From a virus, in the IMG/VR virus record IMGVR_UViG_3300032282_002471, positions 1 to 32,211 of that record: a DNA stretch of 32,211 nucleotides; one strand, 5' to 3'. The notes beneath the pieces were generated by a model that was given only the letters and a program-made list of their open reading frames with translations, did no database searches and was not told where the DNA came from. A program made the position numbers and the translations under genes. Positions 2,787 through 30,334 of this stretch are shown here, one piece after another. How positions within the stretch are numbered: the first letter of the stretch is position 1; each line of letters opens with the position of its first letter.

Positions 2787-5700
2787 ATGGCTCAACAACA
2801 ACAATCAGTTTTAAGGGTTTATAATAATTCAACTAGCGGTTATACCTATCTTGAAACTTATTCGTCTGTTCCAATTAAAGTAGTAAGAAGCTACGCTGAA
2901 TTACAAGACATTGGCAAACGAAATTCTGATTTAATTATTAGCGTTCAAGTACCAGGTTCAAAGAAGAACAATGCTTTCTTTGAATCATTCTTTGACGTTG
3001 ATGTAGCAACACTATTTTTCAATGCTACCAAGAAAGTAGATTGTGATGTGTTGATTAATGACGAAGTTTATTTTCGTGGATACCTTAGATTAAATAAAGT
3101 ATCCGTATTAAACAGTAAAGTAGAGTATGATATATCGTTATATAACTCCGTTGGTAACTTATTTGGTGACATAGGTAATAACTTACTGAAAGATTTGAAT
3201 TATGCCGATGAAGAATATACATTTAATCATACATTTGATGTATTTACGGTTGCAGATACATGGGGATATTCTAATTTTAGTTTAGACCAGGAAAAACCTG
3301 CACCATTCTTCTACCCTATTGTACATAATGGTTATTTGTACTCAGGAGATACTGTTAATTTTACAGGTGGTACATTACAAGACCAAACTAGACTATATAC
3401 ATCTACTGCACCTATTGGTGCTTATGGAACACTAGCTGATTTTAAGACTGCTGGCGGTAAAGAGTATAGAATTAATACTCCAACACAAGGATTGATAAAT
3501 AATCAGTTAAAACCTGCTCTATCTATGTGGAACTTGTTGAAATTAATGTTCAAAACCTATGGTTATAGCATTAAATCAGACTTTTTTAACACTCCATGGA
3601 TGAAAAGTTTGTACATGTATGGGTATTTTAGCTCACCAAATACAAAATTCACATTCACAATTCAGTCAATTCAGATTTTACCATTAGAAGGTGTGTCCAT
3701 TTTCTTTGCAAATGATGGCGGTGGAAACATCAGTCCTATTGTTGTTACAAGAGATACAGGCATTCCTTGTTATGCAGCTGATGATATTGGTGTTACTTTG
3801 GTCTATGAAGACCCAGGTTTTCCTGATTATGTGATAGAAAACTTCCCTATTTATGCTGGAACTTCTGGTGCAACCTTTAATATTGGATTGAATTTCATTA
3901 CAGGATACGTAAATACTCCACAAGTTGGTGTTGCAAGTTCTATAAAATACTTCCCAGTTCCAGTAAATACGCCAGTTCCTTTTGTAGATGGCAGCGAAGT
4001 TAATTTTAGTACCGTTGTCGACCCACTAATTAAACAGATTGACGTATTATCTTCAATAGCTAAGAAGTTTAATTTAGTATTTGTTCCTGACCCTGATGTT
4101 AAGAACCAAATCATTATTGAACCATTCTCATATTACTTTGGGACTGGTGATGTATTAGATTGGACTGACAAATTGAGTTATGATAAAGGATTTACGGTTG
4201 AACCAGCATTGAACTACATTGAAAGTAGTTTAGAAGTTACAGATTCAGAAGATGGTGATTATGGTAACCAACAATTTAAGGATAGAAACAATAGAATTTA
4301 CGGACAGTTAAATCAACAGAACCCTACTGACTTTAAGTCTCAGGAAAAGAGAATTACAACCATATTCTCCCCTGAAATTATCAGACAATGGGACACGGCA
4401 GATCAACCCGGTAACGGAGGTATCAAGATACCACTAGGAATTAACTATGCCGGTTCATCTAACACATCTTCAAACGGAGATAGTGAAGTAACTAACTGGA
4501 CATATACTGGTATTAAGACAAAGCCTAAGTTATTCTTTAATTTAGGTGCAGCTAACGTATTCATTGACCAATTAGGTGAAGTATATAACAATTTAGCTAT
4601 ATATAAATCGTATTTTGTATGGCTAACTAACTCCAATGACACTAATCATTATGGATTAGAGACCATTCCAATCATTTCACACACGATGCCGATTGGTATG
4701 GCTGACCAATATAAGATTAATAACGACAGTGCATCTATATTATTCAACTCAGAAGAAGCGACTTATGTAGATGTTTTAACATATAATGCTTATACAGAAA
4801 ACGATTCGTATGAATTATTCTACGCAAATCGTGTGAATAACCTGTATAATGCAGACACAAGATTTATTTCAGGTAATTTTTATCTAAAATTAAATGAATA
4901 TGCTAACTTAAAAGCTAATGACCTAATCAAAATTAAGGACCAATACTTTATTTGGAACAAGATTGATGGTTACAATTTAACTAATACAGAATTAACAAAC
5001 GTTCAATTAGTTCAAATTAATAATAACCCATCAGTTTATCCAACAAGATATTTCAAATATCAGTATTGTGACCAAACTGGTTATAGTTTTAAGTTAAAAA
5101 CAGATTTTACAAATCCAAATTTACTTTATACCTTATTTGGTTGGAGTATCTTATATGATTATAGTTGTGGTATCGTTTATGGTACAAACAAACCAGAAAA
5201 TGGTTATGTTTCAACTTTATTAGATATTCGTGGTGGAATATATTATTATGTTCCTTACAAAATCATTGAAATAACCGAAGATGAATACAATAATAGCGGT
5301 TATTATGATTGGACAGAAGATACGATGATGCTTCACATATTCTCAATTGAGAAGGGTCCATTTGGAACAAGAATGCCATCATTCTGGTATGGTCCTTTAT
5401 TTATTTATCAAGGATTGAATTTATTTACAAGTTGTAGTAATTTTTATTCAGTGGCTTCTACATACGGAATTAAAATAGGACCATCGACTTACTATGGACC
5501 TGTTATTTTACCGTCTCCTACACCAACTATAACCCCTACAATGACGGTTACTCCGTCTGCTACACCAGCACCAGTTAATGAATGTGTATGGGGTCAAGAT
5601 AATTTAAGATGGAATGCTAATGGAACATATTGGGGTTCTTGTGATACAGTAGCTCCGACGCCTACAATGACGCCGACTAATTCACCTACTCCTAGTATTA

Positions 5701-6920
5701 CTCCGACATTGACGGCTACGCCAACTGGTACTCCTTCGGTTACCCCGACTATTACAAATACTCCTACTATGACTAATACACCAACTCCTAGTGCTGAACC
5801 AGCATGTTTTAGTATTGGTACAGGATTTAATAATGGTGTTTGGGGAGCTGTTCAACAAACTGACAGTAAAATAATTCCTTATGGTGGTTTTACAATATAT
5901 AATTATATACCTAAAAATAGATTTGTTAGAATAAAAACTAATGGTATAATTGATACAACATATCCAATTGGTAATGGATTTACTATAAGTGGTAATACTG
6001 TTGCATTTGTAACTAGTGGAGCTTTACAAAGTACTGGTAAATTTATTGCTGTTGGAGCATTTAATCAATATGATAATGTTACATCAAAAGGTATTGCTAG
6101 AATAAATACTGATGGTACTTTGGACACATCATTTAATGGTGGCAATCCTTTATTTGGAGGAGCTATGACTGATGGTGGAGTTGTATATGTAGATAGTTCA
6201 GATAAGATTTATGTTGGTGGAGATTTTAATTCTTATAATGGTTCAACTGCTTATGGTTTATTAAAATTAAATTCAGATGGTACTTTAGATAATACATGGT
6301 CTTATTCAACAACAGGTTTTAGTAGAATATTTCGTATAGGACAACAATCTAGTGGTAAAATGATAATTTCATGTGGTGATATATATTCATCAACAACAGT
6401 TAATTACATAGCTAGATTAAATACTAACGGTACTGTTGATACAACATTTAATAGTGGCGGTTCAGGATTTGGTAATTGTTGTACAGATGCTATTGCAGTT
6501 CAATCAGACGATAAAATAATTGCAGCAAATAGGTCTAAAATATATAACGGAACATCTGTGGATTATATTTTAAGATTAAATTCAAATGGTTCAATAGATA
6601 ATACGTTTGCAACTGTTGGTACAGGTTTTAATAATATAGTTACAAGATTATTAATATTACCATCTGGTAAAATAATGGTTGCCGGATTCTTTACATCGTA
6701 TAATGGAACTTCTGTTAATAGATTGTGTAGATTAAACTCAGATGGTTCATTAGACACAACATTCAATACTGGTGGTTCAGGATTTAATAATTTAGTATAT
6801 GGAATAAATTTATTAAATGATGGTAATTTACTTATCAGTGGTTATTTCACTACATATAATGGAACAACTGCAAATAGAATAGTAAAATTATCACTAAATG
6901 GTACTTTACTTAACTGCTAA
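2787..6920 (+). CDS. Large tail/baseplate protein fused by Pro/Thr linkers to a delta-60 beta-propeller
   Basis: The product has 1377 residues. Residues 1-~905 form a tail hub-like region; near the start it carries D-V-L-I-N-D-E-V-Y-F-R-G-Y-L-R, typical of Bacteroidota phage tail-associated proteins. Two Pro/Thr linkers follow (about 909-929 and 955-1006), separated by a ~25-residue module with the signature W...W...Y-W-G-S. Residues ~1007-1377 hold about seven delta-60 (DUF5122-like) repeats, each with an R-L-N-x-D-G-x-L-D-x-T-F-type strand and a G-K-I-x-V-x-G-x-F-x-x-Y-N-G segment. Seven repeats would close a seven-bladed beta-propeller. The arrangement suggests a virion protein displaying a flexible tethered propeller, plausibly for adsorption; that role is inferred. 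A 23-bp gap with an AATATTTATT tract follows the gene. Confidence 0.6.
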   Translation: MAQQQQSVLRVYNNSTSGYTYLETYSSVPIKVVRSYAELQDIGKRNSDLIISVQVPGSKKNNAFFESFFDVDVATLFFNATKKVDCDVLINDEVYFRGYLRLNKVSVLNSKVEYDISLYNSVGNLFGDIGNNLLKDLNYADEEYTFNHTFDVFTVADTWGYSNFSLDQEKPAPFFYPIVHNGYLYSGDTVNFTGGTLQDQTRLYTSTAPIGAYGTLADFKTAGGKEYRINTPTQGLINNQLKPALSMWNLLKLMFKTYGYSIKSDFFNTPWMKSLYMYGYFSSPNTKFTFTIQSIQILPLEGVSIFFANDGGGNISPIVVTRDTGIPCYAADDIGVTLVYEDPGFPDYVIENFPIYAGTSGATFNIGLNFITGYVNTPQVGVASSIKYFPVPVNTPVPFVDGSEVNFSTVVDPLIKQIDVLSSIAKKFNLVFVPDPDVKNQIIIEPFSYYFGTGDVLDWTDKLSYDKGFTVEPALNYIESSLEVTDSEDGDYGNQQFKDRNNRIYGQLNQQNPTDFKSQEKRITTIFSPEIIRQWDTADQPGNGGIKIPLGINYAGSSNTSSNGDSEVTNWTYTGIKTKPKLFFNLGAANVFIDQLGEVYNNLAIYKSYFVWLTNSNDTNHYGLETIPIISHTMPIGMADQYKINNDSASILFNSEEATYVDVLTYNAYTENDSYELFYANRVNNLYNADTRFISGNFYLKLNEYANLKANDLIKIKDQYFIWNKIDGYNLTNTELTNVQLVQINNNPSVYPTRYFKYQYCDQTGYSFKLKTDFTNPNLLYTLFGWSILYDYSCGIVYGTNKPENGYVSTLLDIRGGIYYYVPYKIIEITEDEYNNSGYYDWTEDTMMLHIFSIEKGPFGTRMPSFWYGPLFIYQGLNLFTSCSNFYSVASTYGIKIGPSTYYGPVILPSPTPTITPTMTVTPSATPAPVNECVWGQDNLRWNANGTYWGSCDTVAPTPTMTPTNSPTPSITPTLTATPTGTPSVTPTITNTPTMTNTPTPSAEPACFSIGTGFNNGVWGAVQQTDSKIIPYGGFTIYNYIPKNRFVRIKTNGIIDTTYPIGNGFTISGNTVAFVTSGALQSTGKFIAVGAFNQYDNVTSKGIARINTDGTLDTSFNGGNPLFGGAMTDGGVVYVDSSDKIYVGGDFNSYNGSTAYGLLKLNSDGTLDNTWSYSTTGFSRIFRIGQQSSGKMIISCGDIYSSTTVNYIARLNTNGTVDTTFNSGGSGFGNCCTDAIAVQSDDKIIAANRSKIYNGTSVDYILRLNSNGSIDNTFATVGTGFNNIVTRLLILPSGKIMVAGFFTSYNGTSVNRLCRLNSDGSLDTTFNTGGSGFNNLVYGINLLNDGNLLISGYFTTYNGTTANRIVKLSLNGTLLNC
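5511..5804 (+). repeat. Two Pro/Thr-rich linkers around a W-W-YWGS module
   Basis: Bases 5511-5573 and 5649-5804 encode P-T-P-T / T-P-S-x-T-P type linkers, and the ~25 codons between them encode the W...W...YWGS module. Pro and Thr are written with all four synonymous codons in mixed order, so the repeat exists in the protein but not as tandem identical DNA. Confidence 0.8.
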
Positions 6921-6943: not shown

Positions 6944-8428
6944 ATGAGTAGAAAATATATAGGTCAGCTAAACAAAGATAATTTCGTCTATCCCAATTAT
7001 AGGATTGCGGAATACGATACTGAGATTATCCATGACCTAAAAGAAAACCCAGTAACTGGCTCAATTTCGGGGGTTACTATAACACCTAGCGGTACATCAA
7101 TTAACGTTACATTTTCATACAATTGGAATCTAAATGGTGCTGAACCATTCATTAGTGATGCAAATAAGTTAAATGTCTTATCTGTGCATCTAATGACTGG
7201 TACTAAGCAGTATTTTAAGCCGTGGGTATGTATCGGATACGTTGATGACGCAAATACAGCAGCAACAACAGCTTCTGGGACTAAGACTATTACTGTTTTA
7301 CCTTCAATGTTAAATCAAACTTCATTCACAAATGGTACTTACTATTTAGAATTTAGATTGATGAGTAAAAGACAGGTATTACCAGTTCTTGCTCATATTA
7401 ACTTTGTACAACCTAGTCCAACTCCAACACCTAGTGCTAGTGCAGTTCCTCCGGGAGCTTCTCCTACGGCTACGCCTACATTAACTCCAACTAAAACTCC
7501 TGCTGATACTCCAACGGTTACTCAAACACCGACTAATACTCCATCACCAGGTTTAGTTTATTATATTCTTTATAACTGTACAGATAATTTGAATTATAAC
7601 TCAGTTGGTAAGCCATATTTAACATTTAGTAGTGGTGATAGAGTTGTAGATGCTGGTTCAGGAATAAATTATGTAATTTCTGGTGGTACAGATAGAACTA
7701 CAAATCCAGGAGGTGCTTTAATTAATATTACAGCAACAGGTTTATATGGCTGTCCAGGCGGTGGCGCAACCCCTACTCCAACTCCATCATTATTACCAAC
7801 AGGTATTGGCGTTTATACAGGCGGAACTTATTCTAATTCAACAACGGCTTGTGCTGGTGGTGGATACTTAATCAGAAACTGTTATATCGGACCAGGTGAT
7901 ACATTATCTAATGGCGATATTATTTATACAGATAATGCATTAAACTTCCCATTCTCTGGTAATAGTCAGTACTATGTATTCTACAAAGATTCTAACAAAT
8001 GGGCTGGTCAAATCAGTGCAGGTGGTTACGTATCTAACTTAACAGTTTGTGGTGCGGCACCTTCACCGACTCCAACTCCTTCATTAGTAGTTACTCCTGA
8101 TGTTCAATTTTATTTAACATTAGACCCAGGTAACAGTGGCACGCTAGATATTTATACCAATGGTACATTATCAGCAACATTAGATTTTGATGGAGCTAGT
8201 ACAGCAATACACTTAAACCCAGGCGATACATTCTACACAGTAATTACTCAAACAGCAAGGGGAAATAGTGGTCAAAGGGGACAAATAACAATAAATGATA
8301 ATGGTGTTTTATACGAATATACAAATACAACATCAGGACCATTACCTAAATCAAAAACTTCATCAGTAGTTACAGTTGTAGCTGGACATGCTTATGTGGT
8401 ATATGGTTTATGTGGAACATTAATCTAA
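6944..8428 (+). CDS. Modular virion protein with Pro/Thr linkers
   Basis: This 494-residue protein is built as beads on a string. An N-terminal beta-rich head (1-~156) is followed by a long Pro/Thr linker (~157-203), a small Cys-containing domain (~204-273), a short A-T-P-T-P-T-P-S linker, a second Cys-containing domain (~288-370), another S-P-T-P-T-P linker and a final beta-sandwich-like domain (~385-494). The two middle domains each contain a few Cys, Gly and Tyr and may be related. The N-terminal head probably anchors the protein to the virion and the outer beads are exposed decoration or adhesion domains; this is inference. It lies directly before the tape measure gene and starts 4 nt after a TATTTAT heptamer. 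Confidence 0.5.
   Translation: MSRKYIGQLNKDNFVYPNYRIAEYDTEIIHDLKENPVTGSISGVTITPSGTSINVTFSYNWNLNGAEPFISDANKLNVLSVHLMTGTKQYFKPWVCIGYVDDANTAATTASGTKTITVLPSMLNQTSFTNGTYYLEFRLMSKRQVLPVLAHINFVQPSPTPTPSASAVPPGASPTATPTLTPTKTPADTPTVTQTPTNTPSPGLVYYILYNCTDNLNYNSVGKPYLTFSSGDRVVDAGSGINYVISGGTDRTTNPGGALINITATGLYGCPGGGATPTPTPSLLPTGIGVYTGGTYSNSTTACAGGGYLIRNCYIGPGDTLSNGDIIYTDNALNFPFSGNSQYYVFYKDSNKWAGQISAGGYVSNLTVCGAAPSPTPTPSLVVTPDVQFYLTLDPGNSGTLDIYTNGTLSATLDFDGASTAIHLNPGDTFYTVITQTARGNSGQRGQITINDNGVLYEYTNTTSGPLPKSKTSSVVTVVAGHAYVVYGLCGTLI
7412..7552 (+). repeat. Pro/Thr-rich linker
   Basis: About 47 codons of alternating Pro and Thr/Ser/Ala, with mixed synonymous codons. It is the same style of linker as at 5511-5804 and 29348-30023. 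Shorter linkers occur in the same gene near 7768-7800 and 8058-8096. Confidence 0.75.
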
Positions 8429-18692: not shown

Positions 18693-19064
18693 ATGGAGTT
18701 AAATCAATTTATATCTGCTTTACATCAGAGTAAGCAACAAGCTATTACCTGGCACCATCAAACGTCAGGACCTGGTTCATTCAGTGAGCACAAAGCTTTA
18801 CAGAACTACTATGAAGAAATTGTGGAACATATTGATGGTCTTGTCGAGTCTGTTCAAGGATATACTCCTAGAATTGTGGGTTATACTTTATCTAATCCCG
18901 TGGATTGGACTGAAGGTGGCTCAGAAGTATATTTCAAAGGGTTGTATGAGTTTGTGGAAACAAATAGAAAGACATTACCTTGTCAAGAAAGCTGGGTGCA
19001 ACAACAAATAGATAATATAAGCCAATTAATTTCAGAAACTAGATACCAATTAAGCTTAAAATAA
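18693..19064 (+). CDS. DUF5856-like ferritin/Dps-fold helical protein
   Basis: This 123-residue protein is all-helical. The segments F-I-S-A-L-H-Q-S-K-Q-Q-A-I-T-W-H-H-Q, S-E-H-K-A-L-Q-N-Y-Y-E-E-I-V-E-H-I-D-G-L-V-E and V-Q-G-Y-T-P-R-I recall the DUF5856 family of phage proteins, which resembles a Dps/ferritin four-helix bundle (W-H-x-x-T-x-S-x-x-x-H-K-A-L...Y-Y-E...D-x-L-V-E-x-x-Q-G). The His/Glu pattern would suit a metal or structural site. Role in phage biology is unknown; it lies after the portal/adaptor genes and 1 bp before the next ORF. Confidence 0.6.
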   Translation: MELNQFISALHQSKQQAITWHHQTSGPGSFSEHKALQNYYEEIVEHIDGLVESVQGYTPRIVGYTLSNPVDWTEGGSEVYFKGLYEFVETNRKTLPCQESWVQQQIDNISQLISETRYQLSLK

Positions 19065-19254: not shown

Positions 19255-19357
19255 CCTTAAATCAAAGATATTTGACTACTACGTTCATGTTGTATTGATA
19301 TGGGTCGTAGCGGCAGTATGCTTTGATATTTACAAGATAATTGAACACTTTATATAA
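19232..19357 (+). CDS. Short single-pass membrane ORF (41 aa), last gene of the late operon
   Basis: The ATG at 19232 opens 41 codons in another frame overlapping the end of the previous gene. Residues ~17-35 (Y-V-H-V-V-L-I-W-V-A-A-V-C-F-D-I) are a clear hydrophobic segment with a positively charged N-terminal flank (S-L-K-S-K). It is the last ORF before the bidirectional terminator. A small hydrophobic protein in this position could be a holin or lysis protein; this is an inference from position and topology. The ORF could also be fortuitous. Confidence 0.45.
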   Translation: MVNGIISSLKSKIFDYYVHVVLIWVVAAVCFDIYKIIEHFI

Positions 19358-19367
19358 TCTCCCAAAC

Positions 19368-19402
19368 AAAAAACCCCAGACGTAAAACACCTGGGGTTTT
19401 GT
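19368..19402. terminator. Bidirectional rho-independent terminator
   Basis: The arms CCCCAG (19374-19379) and CTGGGG (19391-19396) are extended by A-runs on the left (19368-19373) and T's on the right (19397-19400). It ends the plus-strand late operon. Read on the minus strand it has a T6 tail and would end the minus-strand operon and the candidate small RNA. Confidence 0.85.
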
Positions 19403-19486
19403 ATGAAAATACTAGGGGTGGGAACATTTTAACAATTAACAAAATGGCACTTCGTAAAATCAGAATAAAAAATAACGTCCCACCCT
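19368..19486 (-). ncRNA. Candidate ~119-nt phage small RNA with closed 5'-3' stem
   Basis: Everything needed for an independent RNA is present on the minus strand between two convergent operons. A TTG-N20-TATATTTA promoter (19521-19491) predicts a start near 19487-19484. TAGGGTGGGA (19487-19478) pairs with TCCCACCCCTA (19423-19413) through ten base pairs and one bulged C, closing the molecule. Inside, CATTTT/AAAATG (19446-19425) forms a second hairpin with a 10-nt loop. The terminator hairpin and T6 (19401-19368) supply the 3' end. No ORF of significance lies within it. It could also be an extended 3' UTR structure of the minus operon. The RNA class is not one I recognise. Confidence 0.5.
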
Positions 19487-19490
19487 AATA

Positions 19491-19521
19491 TAAATATAGA
19501 TAATATATTTTATTTAGACAA
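19491..19521 (-). promoter_or_regulatory. Promoter TTG-N20-TATATTTA for the candidate small RNA
   Basis: On the minus strand TTG is at 19521-19519 and TATATTTA at 19498-19491, separated by exactly 20 bp. The elements overlap the stop region of the gene 19510-19779. The only sequence downstream before a terminator is the structured 119-nt element, so the promoter cannot be explained by a protein gene. Confidence 0.6.
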
Positions 19522-19779
19522 GTTTTCTGAAATTTTATTTACAGGTGTCATATTATGAATATCTTCCATAGTTAAATCTGGATGAATTTCTTTTTTCATA
19601 ATTTCTTGCGCCATCTCATTAAACACAAAATATGCAAAGATTGGAAACATCAAAGGATTTTCTTTATGTTCCATATTGTCTTTTACATGGTCTTTATATT
19701 GGTTTAATAAAGTCTCGTGGTTTTGATTTACAAATGCTGTGAAATACTTACCGATGTGTTCTACTGGATTAATTATCAT
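19510..19779 (-). CDS. Hypothetical early protein (89 aa)
   Basis: The start at ATG 19779 (M-I-I-N-P-V-E-H-I-G-K-Y-F) overlaps the upstream gene by 11 bp; longer in-frame extension into that gene is unlikely. The product is helical, His- and Asn-rich, with M-F-P-I-F-A-Y-F-V-F-N-E-M-A-Q-E-I as a hydrophobic helix. No domain is recognised. It is the last gene of the minus-strand operon. Confidence 0.6.
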   Translation of the reverse strand: MIINPVEHIGKYFTAFVNQNHETLLNQYKDHVKDNMEHKENPLMFPIFAYFVFNEMAQEIMKKEIHPDLTMEDIHNMTPVNKISENLSK

Positions 19780-20427: not shown

Positions 20428-20632
20428 CGACTAACGATTTGATGTGCTTATCAATTATTTTAATTGTTTTCTCCATATCTGGGGTTAAACCATTATTACA
20501 ATAATCAACGATGATGTTGGTAATTTTTATGGTTTCTAATAATGATAGTTTGCATTCCATTGTCTTGCAATATTCCATCATGAATTTAAGACTAGATTGT
20601 CTTACGATACTCTCTTGTGTGTTTTGTGCCAT
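20417..20632 (-). CDS. Hypothetical early protein (71 aa)
   Basis: A helical small protein: S-S-L-K-F-M-M-E-Y-C-K-T-M-E, then L-S-L-L-E-T-I-K-I-T-N-I-I-V-D-Y-C-N-N-G. The pattern S-S-L-K-F-x-M-E-Y...L-x-x-x-x-x-T-x-x-x-V-D-Y-x-x-x-G resembles short early proteins I have seen in Flavobacteriia phages, of unknown function. Confidence 0.6.
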   Translation of the reverse strand: MAQNTQESIVRQSSLKFMMEYCKTMECKLSLLETIKITNIIVDYCNNGLTPDMEKTIKIIDKHIKSLVDVK

Positions 20633-20647
20633 TTTGTTTTTTCTTTT

Positions 20648-20855: not shown

Positions 20856-21323
20856 TTAATATTTGATTTTGTTTAATTTGAATTTCATTCCGTTGAGTAC
20901 GTTGAAGAAACTATCTTCATACACACCAGTGTTCTTATGATTGCTAATAAAGTCTTCAATCATTAACTCAAGTGCTAGGCATTCGTTGGTATCTAACTTT
21001 AACCTATGATGTGAAACCTTTTCAACCTGGTGTTCTTCATCTACCAAACGATAGATACTGTTGGGTGCGCCATATTCTCCGATACGTTTATCGGTAGTTT
21101 TAATGACTTTACCTTCTTTGGATAAATTGGATAATGAACGACTGATAGAACTTTCAGAAGTTTTGTCTTGTACCTGTTTGAAGATACCCATTAGATCTGC
21201 GCGGGTAAATTCTTTATGCTGTAAGAATAATTCGTAGATAATCTCTTCCTGATTCTTAGCTTTGGTCTCAAATTGATGTTTTAAATTGTCATCAAGGAAC
21301 AATGTGTTGTGATAGCTTGCCAT
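20856..21323 (-). CDS. Winged-helix DNA-binding protein, probable early regulator
   Basis: The protein has 155 residues. Residues ~24-95 look like a winged helix: E-E-I-I-Y-E-L-F-L-Q-H-K-E-F-T-R-A-D-L-M-G-I-F, then S-E-S-S-I-S-R-S-L-S-N-L-S-K-E-G-K-V-I-K-T as recognition helix plus wing (G-A-P-N-S-I-Y-R-L). The remaining C-terminal part is helical and may dimerise. It is the first gene after a TTG-N20-TATATTTA promoter whose spacer contains an imperfect 20-bp palindrome, so autoregulation is plausible. It could be a repressor of early genes or a replication-linked binder; no integrase is visible to argue for lysogeny. Confidence 0.6.
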   Translation of the reverse strand: MASYHNTLFLDDNLKHQFETKAKNQEEIIYELFLQHKEFTRADLMGIFKQVQDKTSESSISRSLSNLSKEGKVIKTTDKRIGEYGAPNSIYRLVDEEHQVEKVSHHRLKLDTNECLALELMIEDFISNHKNTGVYEDSFFNVLNGMKFKLNKIKY

Positions 21324-21343
21324 TTTGCTGTTTGTTTATAATG

Positions 21344-21392: not shown

Positions 21393-22151
21393 CTATCTTT
21401 TTTGATAAGGTCGTCTATTATTAGCTTGTTGAATCGCAGTAGCCCATCTCAAATTACCGGGTTCATAGTTACCATCATTATTAATTCTATCCAATGAATG
21501 ACCTTTTGGTCTATGTCCAAGATTTTCTAAAATCCATGTCTTAAATCTAATCCAATCTCTAAAATAGTCACAAACTTTGATACCACGACCGCCATAATTA
21601 TGATATTTAATGTAATTTGGATTATGGCATCTAGTTACCATGGTACTCCAAGTAGTATATAAATAATAAAATTCAGAACCCCTAACAGCATCATAGTGAA
21701 TACCCATTCTTTCTGAATGTAATTCAACCCTAAAACAACCACAAGATGATGTGGCACCTTTAATTATTGATAAAAAATCGGCGACACCTTTATTGCCACA
21801 GTCACATACATAATTAACTCTTCTTCTACAACTAAATATTTTATTATACTTTCCTTTACGTGGTTCAGCTTCACTTAAAATAGTTAATTTATTAATCTTT
21901 TTACCAATATAATCTTCAATCTTATGTTTAATTGATGCTTCGCTTACATTCTTGTCTCTTATACAGCCACAAGATGTTGATAATCCAGCTTTAATATTTT
22001 GTAAATAATAATCTTTTATTTTACCGCAGTCACATTGAGCTTTTACTCTTTTCATTTTGTAACCTTGTTTGTTAAGGACTGGTTCTACTTCTGCTAGAAT
22101 TTTCAAAGAATTTATCTTTGCTCCGATTGGTGTTTCTTTTGCTACTCCCAT
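21393..22151 (-). CDS. HNH homing-type endonuclease with two Cys4 DNA-binding repeats
   Basis: The start at ATG 22151 (M-G-V-A-K-E) sits downstream of a consensus promoter, giving 252 residues. Residues ~12-64 and ~85-140 are two copies of one domain (K-I-N-x-L-x-I-L-x-E-x-E-P ... C-D-C-G ... S-C-G-C), with C40/C42/C61/C63 and C116/C118/C137/C139 probably binding zinc. Residues ~164-245 are an HNH nuclease of the phage type (Y-T-T-W-S-T-M-V-T-R-C, H-N-Y-G-G-R-G-I-K-V, H218-S-L-D-R-I-N-N-D-G, then G-N-L-R-W-A-T). Such enzymes are usually selfish homing nucleases; a DNA-processing role is possible. The free-standing C-x-C-x18-C-x-C protein at 26007-26234 carries the same zinc domain. Confidence 0.8.
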   Translation of the reverse strand: MGVAKETPIGAKINSLKILAEVEPVLNKQGYKMKRVKAQCDCGKIKDYYLQNIKAGLSTSCGCIRDKNVSEASIKHKIEDYIGKKINKLTILSEAEPRKGKYNKIFSCRRRVNYVCDCGNKGVADFLSIIKGATSSCGCFRVELHSERMGIHYDAVRGSEFYYLYTTWSTMVTRCHNPNYIKYHNYGGRGIKVCDYFRDWIRFKTWILENLGHRPKGHSLDRINNDGNYEPGNLRWATAIQQANNRRPYQKR

Positions 22152-22174
22152 AATTAATTGTTGGTTTATAAATA

Positions 22175-22206
22175 CAAATATAAATGTTTGCACCAACACA
22201 ACAAAA
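22175..22206 (-). promoter_or_regulatory. Consensus Bacteroidota promoter for the HNH gene
   Basis: On the minus strand TTTTG (22206-22202), a 19-bp spacer and TATATTTG (22182-22175) match the host consensus exactly. The ATG at 22151 is 23 nt downstream of the -7 box. Confidence 0.75.
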
Positions 22207-22474: not shown

Positions 22475-23197
22475 ATGGCAAAACGCTACACAGATAGTGA
22501 AAAATGGGAAGACCCCTGGTTCACTGATTTAACAAATGAACAAAAGTTAGTATGGTTATACCTACTTGACAATTGTGATAATGCTGGATTATGGAAAAAG
22601 AATATTAAGTTATTGAATTTCCATTTAGGTACTACTTTCGTTGAGAGTGATTTATTAGAATTTCTTGATAAAAGAATAATTGAAGTTAATAACAAATGGT
22701 ATATTGAGAAATTTGTTATATTTCAATACGGTACTGATTATTTAATTAATAGTAATAAAGCAGTGCTATCCGCACTGGATAAGTTGGAGATAAATAATAT
22801 TATCAAATTCACAGGAAATTTCATTGAAGTACCTAACAAGTACAAACCATCTGAACCCAAAAAGATAAAAGAATATACCCTATCTATACCCTATCAATAC
22901 CCTATTGATACCCCCAAAGATAAAGATAAAGACAAAGATAAAGATAAAGATAAAGATAAAGATAAAGATAAAGATAAAGACAAAGAGAAAGATAAAGACA
23001 AAGAGAAAGATAAAGTTAAAGAAGAAGACAGGGATAAAGTAAAAGAAGAATTAAAAGATAAAATTCTGGATATATTCAAAGATGAAAAGATATTCAAATT
23101 AATAGAAAAAAGAGATATGGATGCTATTGAAAGAATGGATAAACATATGTTCAATATGCATTATGGTCTTATTAACAAATTAATAAATCTTAAATAA
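22475..23197 (+). CDS. Replication initiator-like protein with internal candidate origin
   Basis: The protein has 240 residues. Residues 1-~125 resemble the N-terminal winged-helix domain of phage replisome organisers (K-W-E-D-P-W-F-T-D-L-T-N-E-Q-K-L-V-W-L-Y-L-L-D-N-C-D-N-A-G-L-W, then L-L-E-F-L-D-K-R-I-I-E-V-N-N-K-W-Y-I and F-V-I-F-Q-Y-G). A Lys-Asp repeat fills ~147-180, and a Lys/Glu-rich helical C-terminus follows; no helicase or ATPase motif is present. It presumably binds origin iterons and recruits host replication proteins. The coding sequence itself contains three and a half 11-bp repeats (22876-22913) followed by a 96-bp AT-rich hexamer array, the arrangement of origins buried in initiator genes such as lambda O. 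It is the first gene of the early plus-strand operon. Confidence 0.65.
   Translation: MAKRYTDSEKWEDPWFTDLTNEQKLVWLYLLDNCDNAGLWKKNIKLLNFHLGTTFVESDLLEFLDKRIIEVNNKWYIEKFVIFQYGTDYLINSNKAVLSALDKLEINNIIKFTGNFIEVPNKYKPSEPKKIKEYTLSIPYQYPIDTPKDKDKDKDKDKDKDKDKDKDKDKEKDKDKEKDKVKEEDRDKVKEELKDKILDIFKDEKIFKLIEKRDMDAIERMDKHMFNMHYGLINKLINLK
22876..22913 (+). repeat. 11-bp iterons, candidate replication origin
   Basis: TACCCTATCTA (22876), TACCCTATCAA (22887), TACCCTATTGA (22898) and a partial TACCC (22909) are spaced exactly 11 bp apart, about one helical turn. Since 11 is not a multiple of three, the copies are read in different frames and give no protein repeat, so the repetition is probably selected in DNA. 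They directly adjoin the AT-rich hexamer array. Confidence 0.65.
22916..23011 (+). repeat. (AAAGAT)16 hexamer array encoding Lys-Asp/Glu
   Basis: Sixteen consecutive units AAAGA(T/C/G), 13 ending in T or C (Asp) at near-identical DNA level and a few in G or C, encode an alternating K-D/K-E tract. The array is very AT-rich and purine-biased on the plus strand. It could serve as an unwinding element for the adjacent iterons. Slippage would change length in steps of two residues without a frameshift. Confidence 0.9.
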
Positions 23198-24281: not shown

Positions 24282-24528
24282 GTTAGGCTATATCGATATA
24301 CCGGTAAGGTATCCCAAATTCACAAAGAAACAAAAGAATGCTCTGTGTGATAAGATTATTGACACGTTGTTACACCACATTGAGACACAGATAGATGACA
24401 ACGAAATAAACAAAGTGACGTTATTGGATAGTGTTTTTGAAAGTACAATACTAACCAATGAAGAATACGAAAACTACGAAGTATGCCAGGTCATTTTAGA
24501 TTGTAGGAAACGATTGAATGATAATTGA
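24259..24528 (+). CDS. Hypothetical early protein (89 aa)
   Basis: The start at ATG 24259 (M-T-N-K-E-R-I-E-L-G-Y) overlaps the previous gene by 23 bp; a TTG at 24244 is the alternative. The protein is helical and acidic, with Q-K-N-A-L-C-D-K-I-I-D-T-L-L-H-H-I-E and N-E-E-Y-E-N-Y-E-V-C. Its end overlaps the sigma-like gene by 11 bp, so the two may be translationally coupled. No family is recognised. Confidence 0.55.
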   Translation: MTNKERIELGYIDIPVRYPKFTKKQKNALCDKIIDTLLHHIETQIDDNEINKVTLLDSVFESTILTNEEYENYEVCQVILDCRKRLNDN

Positions 24529-25033
24529 AGTTGAGCAGTACATTGCAAAAAATTATTACCAGCTATTAAAAATAGCAAAGAAATACACTAAGAATGACGA
24601 TTGGGCGTCAGAACTATTACATGAAGTTGTCTTACAACTATATGACAAGAAAGAACTAAAACTAAACCTTGATGATACAAGCATAAAAGCTTATATTATA
24701 AGGTGTTTGATGGTGAATTGGTGCTACCCATCGTCACCGTTCTTTAAGAAGCATAAGAAGCATAACAATACCCACATTGAACTAAGCGAGATAATGGAAT
24801 TGGTCCAGAAAGATTCGGAGCTGGAAGAACACAGATTAATGGATATATTGGAACAAGAGTTTGGGGATGTTAATTGGTTCAACAAGATTATATTTGAGAA
24901 ATATCTTACGCTTAATTCATTAAAGCGAGTATCACTAGATACCAAAATAACCATACCTTCAATCGGCAGGTATGTCAAAGAAACCAAAACCCAGGTAAGA
25001 TTCAATACCATAAGAAGATTTGAAAACGAATAG
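24518..25033 (+). CDS. Sigma-factor-like protein
   Basis: The protein has 171 residues. Residues ~9-72 resemble sigma-70 region 2: Y-Y-Q-L-L-K-I-A-K-K-Y-T-K-N-D-D-W-A-S-E-L-L-H-E-V-V then K-A-Y-I-I-R-C-L-M-V-N-W and a basic F-F-K-K-H-K-K-H. Residues ~120-165 (F-N-K-I-I-F-E-K-Y-L-T-L-N-S-L-K-R-V-S, then T-I-P-S-I-G-R-Y-V-K-E-T-K) could be a region-4-type helix-turn-helix. Similar small sigma-like proteins lie near terminase genes of Bacteroidota phages. It may direct host RNA polymerase to phage promoters such as the TATATTTA-type sites in this window; that link is inferred. Alternatively it is simply a DNA-binding protein of the terminase region. Confidence 0.5.
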   Translation: MIIEVEQYIAKNYYQLLKIAKKYTKNDDWASELLHEVVLQLYDKKELKLNLDDTSIKAYIIRCLMVNWCYPSSPFFKKHKKHNNTHIELSEIMELVQKDSELEEHRLMDILEQEFGDVNWFNKIIFEKYLTLNSLKRVSLDTKITIPSIGRYVKETKTQVRFNTIRRFENE

Positions 25034-28399: not shown

Positions 28400-30334
28400 A
28401 TGATTCAAATCAATTACAAACAAATCTTAACGTATTTTAGCTCAATTGCTCAACACCATGAGCAGATTAAGTCTTATGGCTTTGGTGATTTGAACCAATG
28501 TACTAACGATATTGTCACAAAACAGGAACCTTTATTTACTAGGTTATATATTGTCCCAGAGAATGTAGAGTTTAATCAGAACCATATTCATTACAACTTT
28601 AATATGTTGGTAATGGACATTATTGATGATGACCTAAGCAATCAAAAGGAAGTAATGAGTGATACATTTGCTATCATTACAGATATTTGGACCGTATTTT
28701 GGCAGTCATATACTGAACAGTACGGTGATTTTTCACAGATTATTGTTGGTGACTGGGAACCTACTGTTGTTCCATTCTTAGAACGTTTCGATACAGTTGT
28801 TGGTGGATGGAATATGCATATTAAAATGTCTGCTCCATTTGACTACAATAGTTGTAATTTACCTATTGCAGCTGGTTATAGCTTCCCACAAGACCAATCA
28901 TTTAGTTCTTATAGACAAATTATACAGGACTGGGAAGACTTTGCTGATGCCCACGAACAAATTAAAAGCTTTGGTTATGGTGATGCACCTAATCTGACAA
29001 TGAACATTGATACAGAGAAGGAACCTTTATACCCACGTATCTATTTTATTCCAAAAGATTCTAGGTTAAATCCTAATCATATGCACATTACGTGGGAGAT
29101 TATGGTTGTGGATAAAGTGGATGAAGATTTAAGTAACCAGCAAGACGTTTTATCTGATACGTTAGAAATTCTTAAAGACTTTTATGCTAAGGCATATCTT
29201 TCGGATTATGAAGTTGATTTTGATGCTAACTTATGGCCGTGGTTAGAAAAGACTGATGCGGTATTAGCAGGATGGACAATTACATTAAGTATTACACAGA
29301 AGTTTGACTTTAATAGATGTGTATTACCTATGACTGATTTTGCACAGCCATCTCCTACACCTACTCATACTCCTACTCCGTCTGTAACAGCTACAATGAC
29401 TCCGACTCCGAGCATTGAGCCTACTAGTACGCCTACACCAACGGCTACGCCAGATCCTACAAGTACTCCAACACCTAGTGTAACAACAACTTTAACTGCT
29501 ACTCCTACTGGAACACCAGCAAGCACGCCAGATGTAACACCATCTGCTACGCCTACTCATACTCCAGCAGCAACAAGTACTCCAACATATACTCCTTCGG
29601 TTACTCCGACAGGAACGCCTGCTAGCACACCAAATGCTACAAGCACTCCAACTTTAACGCCTACAAGTAGTCCAACAGGAACACCAGCTATTACTCCAAC
29701 TAATACTGCAACCCCTACTTCTACTCCTACATATACCCCATCTATCACTCCAACAAATACAGTGACGCCAACAGCTTCACCTAAAATTGATAATGGAACA
29801 TGGAGTGGAACTACTCAGTCATGGAGTGGTAATACAAATTATTGGGGAAGTTACTCACCAGTTGCGCCTACGCCAACTCCAACTAGTACGCTTACTCCAA
29901 CACCGAGTATCACGCCAACATTTACACCTACTGCAAGTGTAACTCCAACAAGAACGCCAGCTGTAACAAGTACGCCTACGGTAACTCCTACTGGAACGCT
30001 TACACCTACGCCTACTCCATCATCAGCAGCAAAAACTTGTATTCGTATTCAAACTGGTAATAATGGTGGTGGTGGAAGTAGTTTCTTCACAACATTAGCA
30101 GGTGCTTGTGGATATACAGGTTCGTTACCAACAAACAGGGGAGCATCAGTACCATCTAGTAATACACAACCGGCTATTGGTGTTAGAATATATACTGGTT
30201 CATCTTGTACAACAACTGGTCCATTAGCAGGTGGAAATAAATACACTAAGTTTATATGGCCGAGTAATACAACAGGATATAACGTAATGCAAGTAGATAA
30301 TAACGGATATATAATCTGGTTGGGAACTTGTTAA
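28400..30334 (+). CDS. Virion protein: tandemly duplicated N-terminal domain, Pro/Thr linkers, YWGS module and C-terminal bead
   Basis: The protein has 644 residues. Residues ~15-155 and ~170-313 are a clear tandem duplication: H-E-Q-I-K-S-(Y/F)-G-(F/Y)-G-D, E-P-L-(F/Y)-x-R-(L/I)-Y, N-H-(I/M)-H, D-L-S-N-Q-x-(E/D)-V-(M/L)-S-D-T and a G-W-x-(M/I) strand occur in the same order in both. The domain recalls small tail-terminator or neck-type proteins, without certainty. A ~142-residue Pro/Thr linker follows (from ~317), then a W-S-G...Y-W-G-S module, a second linker (~488-541) and a Cys-containing C-terminal domain (~542-644). The composition suggests a virion-anchored base with a long flexible exposed arm. 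It starts 6 nt after TATTTAT. Confidence 0.5.
   Translation: MIQINYKQILTYFSSIAQHHEQIKSYGFGDLNQCTNDIVTKQEPLFTRLYIVPENVEFNQNHIHYNFNMLVMDIIDDDLSNQKEVMSDTFAIITDIWTVFWQSYTEQYGDFSQIIVGDWEPTVVPFLERFDTVVGGWNMHIKMSAPFDYNSCNLPIAAGYSFPQDQSFSSYRQIIQDWEDFADAHEQIKSFGYGDAPNLTMNIDTEKEPLYPRIYFIPKDSRLNPNHMHITWEIMVVDKVDEDLSNQQDVLSDTLEILKDFYAKAYLSDYEVDFDANLWPWLEKTDAVLAGWTITLSITQKFDFNRCVLPMTDFAQPSPTPTHTPTPSVTATMTPTPSIEPTSTPTPTATPDPTSTPTPSVTTTLTATPTGTPASTPDVTPSATPTHTPAATSTPTYTPSVTPTGTPASTPNATSTPTLTPTSSPTGTPAITPTNTATPTSTPTYTPSITPTNTVTPTASPKIDNGTWSGTTQSWSGNTNYWGSYSPVAPTPTPTSTLTPTPSITPTFTPTASVTPTRTPAVTSTPTVTPTGTLTPTPTPSSAAKTCIRIQTGNNGGGGSSFFTTLAGACGYTGSLPTNRGASVPSSNTQPAIGVRIYTGSSCTTTGPLAGGNKYTKFIWPSNTTGYNVMQVDNNGYIIWLGTC
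29348..30023 (+). repeat. Long Pro/Thr-rich linkers flanking a YWGS module
   Basis: Bases 29348-~29778 and 29861-30023 encode about 195 codons of Pro alternating with Thr/Ser/Ala/Val, interrupted by the W...YWGS module. Codons for Thr and Pro vary throughout, so no long identical DNA repeat exists. Confidence 0.8.

Follow-up and report, generated by a model that had tools for sequence, protein, structure and literature searches.

The well-studied antisense RNAs of phages come mostly from enterobacterial phages and are often cis-acting or Hfq-dependent. The C4 antisense RNA of phages P1 and P7 is cut from the transcript of its own target and is located upstream of it. The CI immunity RNA of P4 pairs as an antisense with early transcripts of its own genome and causes their premature termination. 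OOP of phage lambda, sar of P22 and 24B_1 of an Stx phage are post-transcriptional repressors of regulatory genes of the phage itself (PMC12197685); OOP and sar are encoded opposite their targets and share long complementarity with them, and 24B_1 is processed to 20 nt with the help of Hfq. In the Bacteroidota, the host small RNA Rfp18 of Flavobacterium psychrophilum has predicted protease targets and a pairing region predicted to lie in one stem-loop (PMC9723704).

We analysed an RNA element carried by a 32-kb virus contig with portal, terminase and tail genes (the window, i.e. the whole stretch of 32,211 nucleotides). By its predicted working principle this RNA belongs to the phage antisense RNAs, and it belongs to no named family. 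It resembles C4 as a short structured phage RNA predicted to repress a phage gene through a loop that pairs close to its translation start, but unlike C4 it has its own promoter and lies, in the window, downstream of both predicted targets. Like OOP, sar and 24B_1, it would repress regulatory genes of its own phage post-transcriptionally; unlike OOP and sar, it is encoded elsewhere on the same strand as its targets and would use a short seed. With P4 CI it shares the predicted antisense action of a small phage RNA on early transcripts of the same genome, but the region predicted to be paired is here the start codon, and the RNA has no Rfam match. Rfp18 is likewise an independent small RNA from a Bacteroidota background with a promoter of the TAnnTTTG type; it is host-encoded, whereas the RNA described here is encoded by the phage.

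The RNA element and its promoter

The element spans positions 19521-19366 of the minus strand, where a promoter of the Bacteroidota type is followed by an RNA closed at its ends and by a terminator (Table 1). It is flanked by the last ORF of the rightward structural operon, which stops at 19357, and by the last gene of the leftward operon, which stops at 19510 and which we call early on the basis of position and orientation. All the parts named by the initial annotation (TTG, a spacer of 20 nt, TATATTTA, closing stem, terminator with T6) were found on the minus strand, and no ORF of at least 50 aa is present within the element in the window. It had missed UGCCAU, the conserved part of the loop. 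The structural module on the rightward strand also contains a gene at 18693-19064 (+) matching PHROG 858, a starvation-inducible transcriptional regulator (Dps-like), and the structural region encodes large proteins with long proline-threonine-rich repeats (2787-6920, 6944-8428 and 28400-30334, all +).

Table 1. Coordinates of the RNA element and of its predicted targets in the window.
Feature	Position	Strand	Basis or remark
-33 element TTG of the RNA promoter	19519..19521	-	sequence
-7 element TATATTTA, Bacteroidota sigma-A type, TAnnTTTG-like	19491..19498	-	sequence
Closing stem, 5' arm GGGUGGGA	19478..19485	-	sequence, fold, covariation
Loop hexamer UGCCAU, proposed seed	19444..19449	-	invariant in the aligned set, which was itself chosen by the hexamer
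Closing stem, 3' arm UCCCACCC	19416..19423	-	fold and covariation
Intrinsic terminator, then T6	19370..19400	-	sequence
m20417, predicted target 1, 71 aa	20417..20632	-	confidently predicted three-helix protein
Predicted target site 1 AACAAAAUGGCAC, across the start codon of m20417	20626..20638	-	13 contiguous pairs with the loop
m20856, predicted target 2, 155 aa	20856..21323	-	predicted winged-helix protein; PHROG 9069
Predicted target site 2 AGCAAAAUGGCA, start codon of m20856	21318..21329	-	12 contiguous pairs including one G-U

The promoter resembles the sigma-A consensus of F. psychrophilum, TAnnTTTG at -12 to -5 (PMC9723704). Presence of TATATTTA in most members of the RNA family described below is by construction, as it served as the search anchor. 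Of 38 non-redundant members, 26 have a TTG at a distance of 15-26 nt upstream of the -7 box, compared with 29% of all TATATTTA sites in the loci. In 36 of 37 distinct members, the closing stem starts 3-7 nt past the -7 box, which fits a transcript starting at the stem; in the window the predicted start is at about 19485-19489. Downstream, 16 of 38 members have a strict terminator within 120 nt, compared with 1.1% of random windows, and in many other members a U-tract directly follows the closing stem. Six of the 38 members also have a terminator just upstream of the RNA promoter (about 1% of random windows), showing that in several relatives the RNA is separate from the upstream operon. The conserved promoter, the stem, the terminator or U-tract and the absence of an ORF thus describe, on sequence grounds, a discrete non-coding unit.

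Folding extends the perfect stem core GGGUGGGA/UCCCACCC to 12 pairs with one bulge. The 125-nt RNA folds better than all of 200 shuffled sequences (z -4.09); when the terminator is left out, z is -2.24 and 4 of 200 shuffles fold equally well. Much of the folding signal therefore comes from the terminator, and folding alone constitutes weak evidence, unlike the comparative evidence for the RNA, which is strong. Of the structure that had been proposed, the internal hairpin is the least well supported part: the minimum-energy structure of the 125 nt has a frequency of 0.0006, and the length and sequence of the loop vary among relatives. This loop comprises about 45-55 nt and contains a single conserved hexamer.

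Conservation in a group of uncultured phages

A direct DNA similarity search against annotated phages found nothing, nor did a search with the 108-aa protein neighbouring the RNA. The portal protein was the gateway: searching with it retrieved 80 related contigs, several of which have the same promoter, a closing stem of another sequence and an identical loop hexamer. A descriptor scan combining promoter, stem and hexamer identified 25 distinct strong members; with any of eight control hexamers in place of UGCCAU, it identified none. Further pattern and portal searches raised the family to about 50 distinct members, all from one group of uncultured phages. In a test not conditioned on the stem, we searched for TATATTTA followed by NGCCAN at 28-60 nt and scored the stem afterwards: it is present at 56 of 68 distinct sites within the phage group, whereas of 173 sites in other contigs, retrieved by the same DNA patterns, a single one has it. 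The RNA lies in the interval between structural and replication genes, on the leftward strand, in 33 of 33 scored cases.

In 36 of 43 loci spanning the region, the scan detected the RNA or a variant of it was noted. Two of the seven scan negatives (L078 and L080) do carry it with a weakened promoter box, and were found without using the -7 box as anchor. L046 and L049 resemble L045, in which the stem is kept and the hexamer is absent. In L042 and L043 the RNA is on the opposite strand, and the hexamer itself varies in L005, L011, L036 and L039. The element of L045 (10533-10623), present also in L046 and L049, combines the same promoter and a 10-12 bp closing stem with a loop lacking UGCCAU, goes with an m20417 homologue whose start is ATGGAA rather than ATGGC, and may be a sister RNA with a different target.

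The arms of the stem were compared in an anchored condensed alignment (A4) and in an alignable clade (A3), because MAFFT alone misaligns covarying arms. In 37 distinct arm pairs, 99.7% of cells are paired, a percentage that is partly by construction since these pairs were chosen for having a stem; all eight positions change on both sides, and double-change cells number 106 against 23 in shuffles. In the five sequences of the naturally alignable clade, 12 of 12 pairs are kept in all and three pairs are changed on both sides. The alignable clade, the control-hexamer scan, the scan of genome contigs reported below and the count of 56/68 against 1/173 are free of stem-selection bias. The initial annotation had proposed scoring stem covariation in homologues and named loss of the stem pairs or the promoter as evidence against the RNA: relatives retain the pairs and, a few exceptions aside, the promoter. 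Conservation of the promoter, the closing stem and the position, together with many compensatory changes, supports its central suggestion of a separate small phage RNA whose ends are held together.

A scan of genome contigs gave 117 promoter-motif matches, none with the stem, so that no prophage or named host was found. The element was not detectable in the nearest cultured relative, Nonlabens phage P12024S, whose portal is 28% identical. Hosts of the phage group are probably Bacteroidota. Neither the window nor 13 relatives gave an Rfam match at gathering score, and the region 19300-19600 gave none at E 10. This holds for the C4 model, for the phi29-type packaging RNA and for 6S RNA (including 6S-Flavo). 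Weak scores, such as those for rnk_leader and RsaE, stemmed mainly from the terminator, were far under the gathering scores and were rejected. From the comparative data the conserved RNA family is almost certainly real. It appears to be previously undescribed: neither Rfam nor the literature searched, largely papers outside subscription journals, yielded an earlier description.

Complementarity of the loop to start regions of early genes

The hexamer UGCCAU is the complement of AUGGCA. A ranking by fixed hexamer was replaced by a ranking by duplex energy with swap controls, for which duplexes were computed between the loop and the start regions of all genes in each of 36 non-redundant phages; the energies leave out accessibility, gene starts were automatic, and the ranking covered phage genes rather than host targets. 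The best two of 25 gene families were those of m20417 (z -5.1, n=32) and m20856 (z -4.6, n=16). Members of both are always on the same strand as the RNA, in the leftward early operon. In the window, target site 1 ranks first of 38 start regions (-22.3 kcal/mol), its predicted duplex covering 19438-19450 of the RNA, and target site 2 ranks third (-21.4 kcal/mol). The second rank is taken by a rightward gene (22475-23197, +) encoding a replication-initiator-like protein with a long KD repeat, whose start ATGGCAAAA pairs well; that it scores nearly equal to the proposed targets speaks against the antisense reading in the window.

Simple swapping of RNAs and targets between phages gave z values of -2.3 and -3.2 for the two target families and about 0 for controls. 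Row and column means were then removed, which takes out the average stickiness of each RNA and each target. For own-phage targets starting with ATGGC, pairing was stronger than expected by 3.05 kcal/mol (p 2e-5); the ATGGC genes of the opposite strand gave -0.14 after the same correction (p 0.42 by t-test, 0.93 by Wilcoxon). A permutation test comparing own with others' targets in the two families gave z -5.05 and p 0.0003; all these p-values overstate independence since the phages are related, and the lineages bearing the signal number perhaps nine or ten, judged by eye. In phages with UGCCAU, 53% of target genes start with ATGGCA compared with 2.5% of opposite-strand genes, in which GCT is favoured as second codon.

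The strongest single cases are two pairs of phages with matched changes. L006 has UGCCAU and the winged-helix target AUGGCA, whereas L011 has AGCCAU and AUGGCU in the same target, so that a silent GCA to GCU difference in the gene has its counterpart in a U to A change of the RNA. Similarly, L002 has UGCCAU and AUGGCA in a neighbouring gene, whereas L005 has CGCCAU and AUGGCG in the same gene: GCA to GCG is met by U to C. The neighbouring gene in question (L002:3824-5065, -), which adjoins the RNA, encodes a homologue of TET-associated glycosyltransferases (PF20691, E 4e-35), a hint that the DNA of some of these phages may be modified. In L045 and L046, which lack the hexamer, m20417 starts with ATGGAA, and in L375 and L377, which lack the RNA, with ATGTCA.

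Several members run against the antisense reading. L136, L066, L392, L043 and others have no convincing target among the fetched genes; m20417 of L024 and L048 starts with ATGGCT, which mismatches the first seed base; L039 has AGCCAU yet its target is still ATGGCA, and its leader pairs instead; L355 has an ATGGCA target and the RNA was not found. The complementarity and co-variation expected of an antisense RNA are thus observed statistically, with exceptions.

No significant Pfam match was obtained for m20417 or m20856. The predicted winged helix of m20856 consists of helices 25-36, 41-51 and 57-69 and two wing strands; its best fold matches are mostly DNA-binding regulators, none of which reaches E 0.001. 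Beyond the targets, 21393-22199 (-) is an HNH endonuclease gene, and a similar gene lies elsewhere in relatives, e.g. beside g17687; such a shifting position is expected of a mobile homing endonuclease. The gene at 24518-25033 (+) has a weak match to sigma-70 region 2 (E 0.013), and P12024S has an annotated sigma-70-like gene at a comparable place.

Proposed mode of action and alternatives

Comparison among relatives establishes, at the sequence level, the RNA unit, its stem, promoter, position and seed and its specific complementarity to target starts; from these we infer its production, its pairing in the cell, the repression and its purpose. The phage would transcribe a short RNA separately, from its own Bacteroidota-type promoter, with a length of about 120 nt in the window and about 75-80 nt in relatives with a U-tract straight after the stem. 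A stem of 7-14 bp would clamp the ends and expose a mostly single-stranded loop, in which UGCCAU and adjacent bases could pair with one or two same-strand early genes, those of the small three-helix protein and the winged-helix protein, over their start codon and A-rich leader (AAAAUGGCA). Shine-Dalgarno sequences are absent from Flavobacterium mRNAs, in which bases such as an A at -3 serve initiation (PMC6847099). Pairing over the start codon would block ribosome loading, which in such hosts relies on the bases immediately before the AUG rather than on a Shine-Dalgarno sequence, and the outcome would be post-transcriptional repression of the early operon, either to switch its timing or to give immunity to superinfection by another phage. 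We consider it probable that the RNA is a trans-acting antisense that blocks translation of the phage's own early genes.

Alternatively, the RNA could be real but have its main targets among host mRNAs, or in another host RNA, and its match to early genes of the phage would be secondary. A seed complementary to AUGGCA could match many genes starting with Met-Ala, host genes are the targets of known phage RNAs, PreS among them (PMC12197685), and some members have no good phage target. A host-directed loop does not predict, however, that two phage families stand out of 25, that own pairs exceed swapped ones or that base changes are matched, and we regard it as unlikely. Closed ends and a near-invariant hexamer within an otherwise variable loop would also suit a scaffold or protein decoy, packaging-RNA-like or 6S-like, in which the closed stem is the functional shape and UGCCAU a protein-binding site. 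The likeness to packaging or 6S RNA had been raised initially and is not upheld, as Rfam gave no match in the window or 13 relatives and the evidence favours antisense pairing; moreover, the element does not adjoin the terminase genes, and the hexamer varies in the four members named above, in two cases jointly with a candidate target start. A scaffold is accordingly rather improbable.

Two readings bind the element to its neighbours. In L024, L103, L365, L392 and L408, a small ORF begins a few bases from the post-stem U-tract, as would be expected of a cis-acting leader or attenuator of the gene immediately downstream, and in this clade the RNA could also be a leader. The window and most members have a terminator or a convergent operon there, not an ORF, which makes a leader very unlikely for the family. 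An ordinary 3' untranslated region with its terminator between convergent operons would account for the position at the end of the leftward operon, for a terminator that is real and for a fold that is only mildly unusual without it. Such a region would not have its own conserved promoter, a covarying closing stem and a conserved hexamer, nor would the operon terminator lie upstream of the RNA promoter, as it does in several relatives; already disfavoured by covariation, it is hardly credible.

Taking the RNA as a trans-acting antisense, we advance more tentatively, as a possibility we hold to be somewhat doubtful, that it is the immunity or timing determinant of a whole group of Bacteroidota phages, in which the seed would evolve in step with the start codons of early regulatory genes, giving each lineage a lock-and-key pair of its own, and the preferred target would shift between the three-helix gene, the winged-helix gene and neighbours. 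As an antisense, the RNA would represent a widespread phage RNA family in another phylum, with mRNAs that lack Shine-Dalgarno sequences and a seed placed over the start codon. The many natural RNA-target pairs with matched changes would make the mechanism testable by partner swaps.
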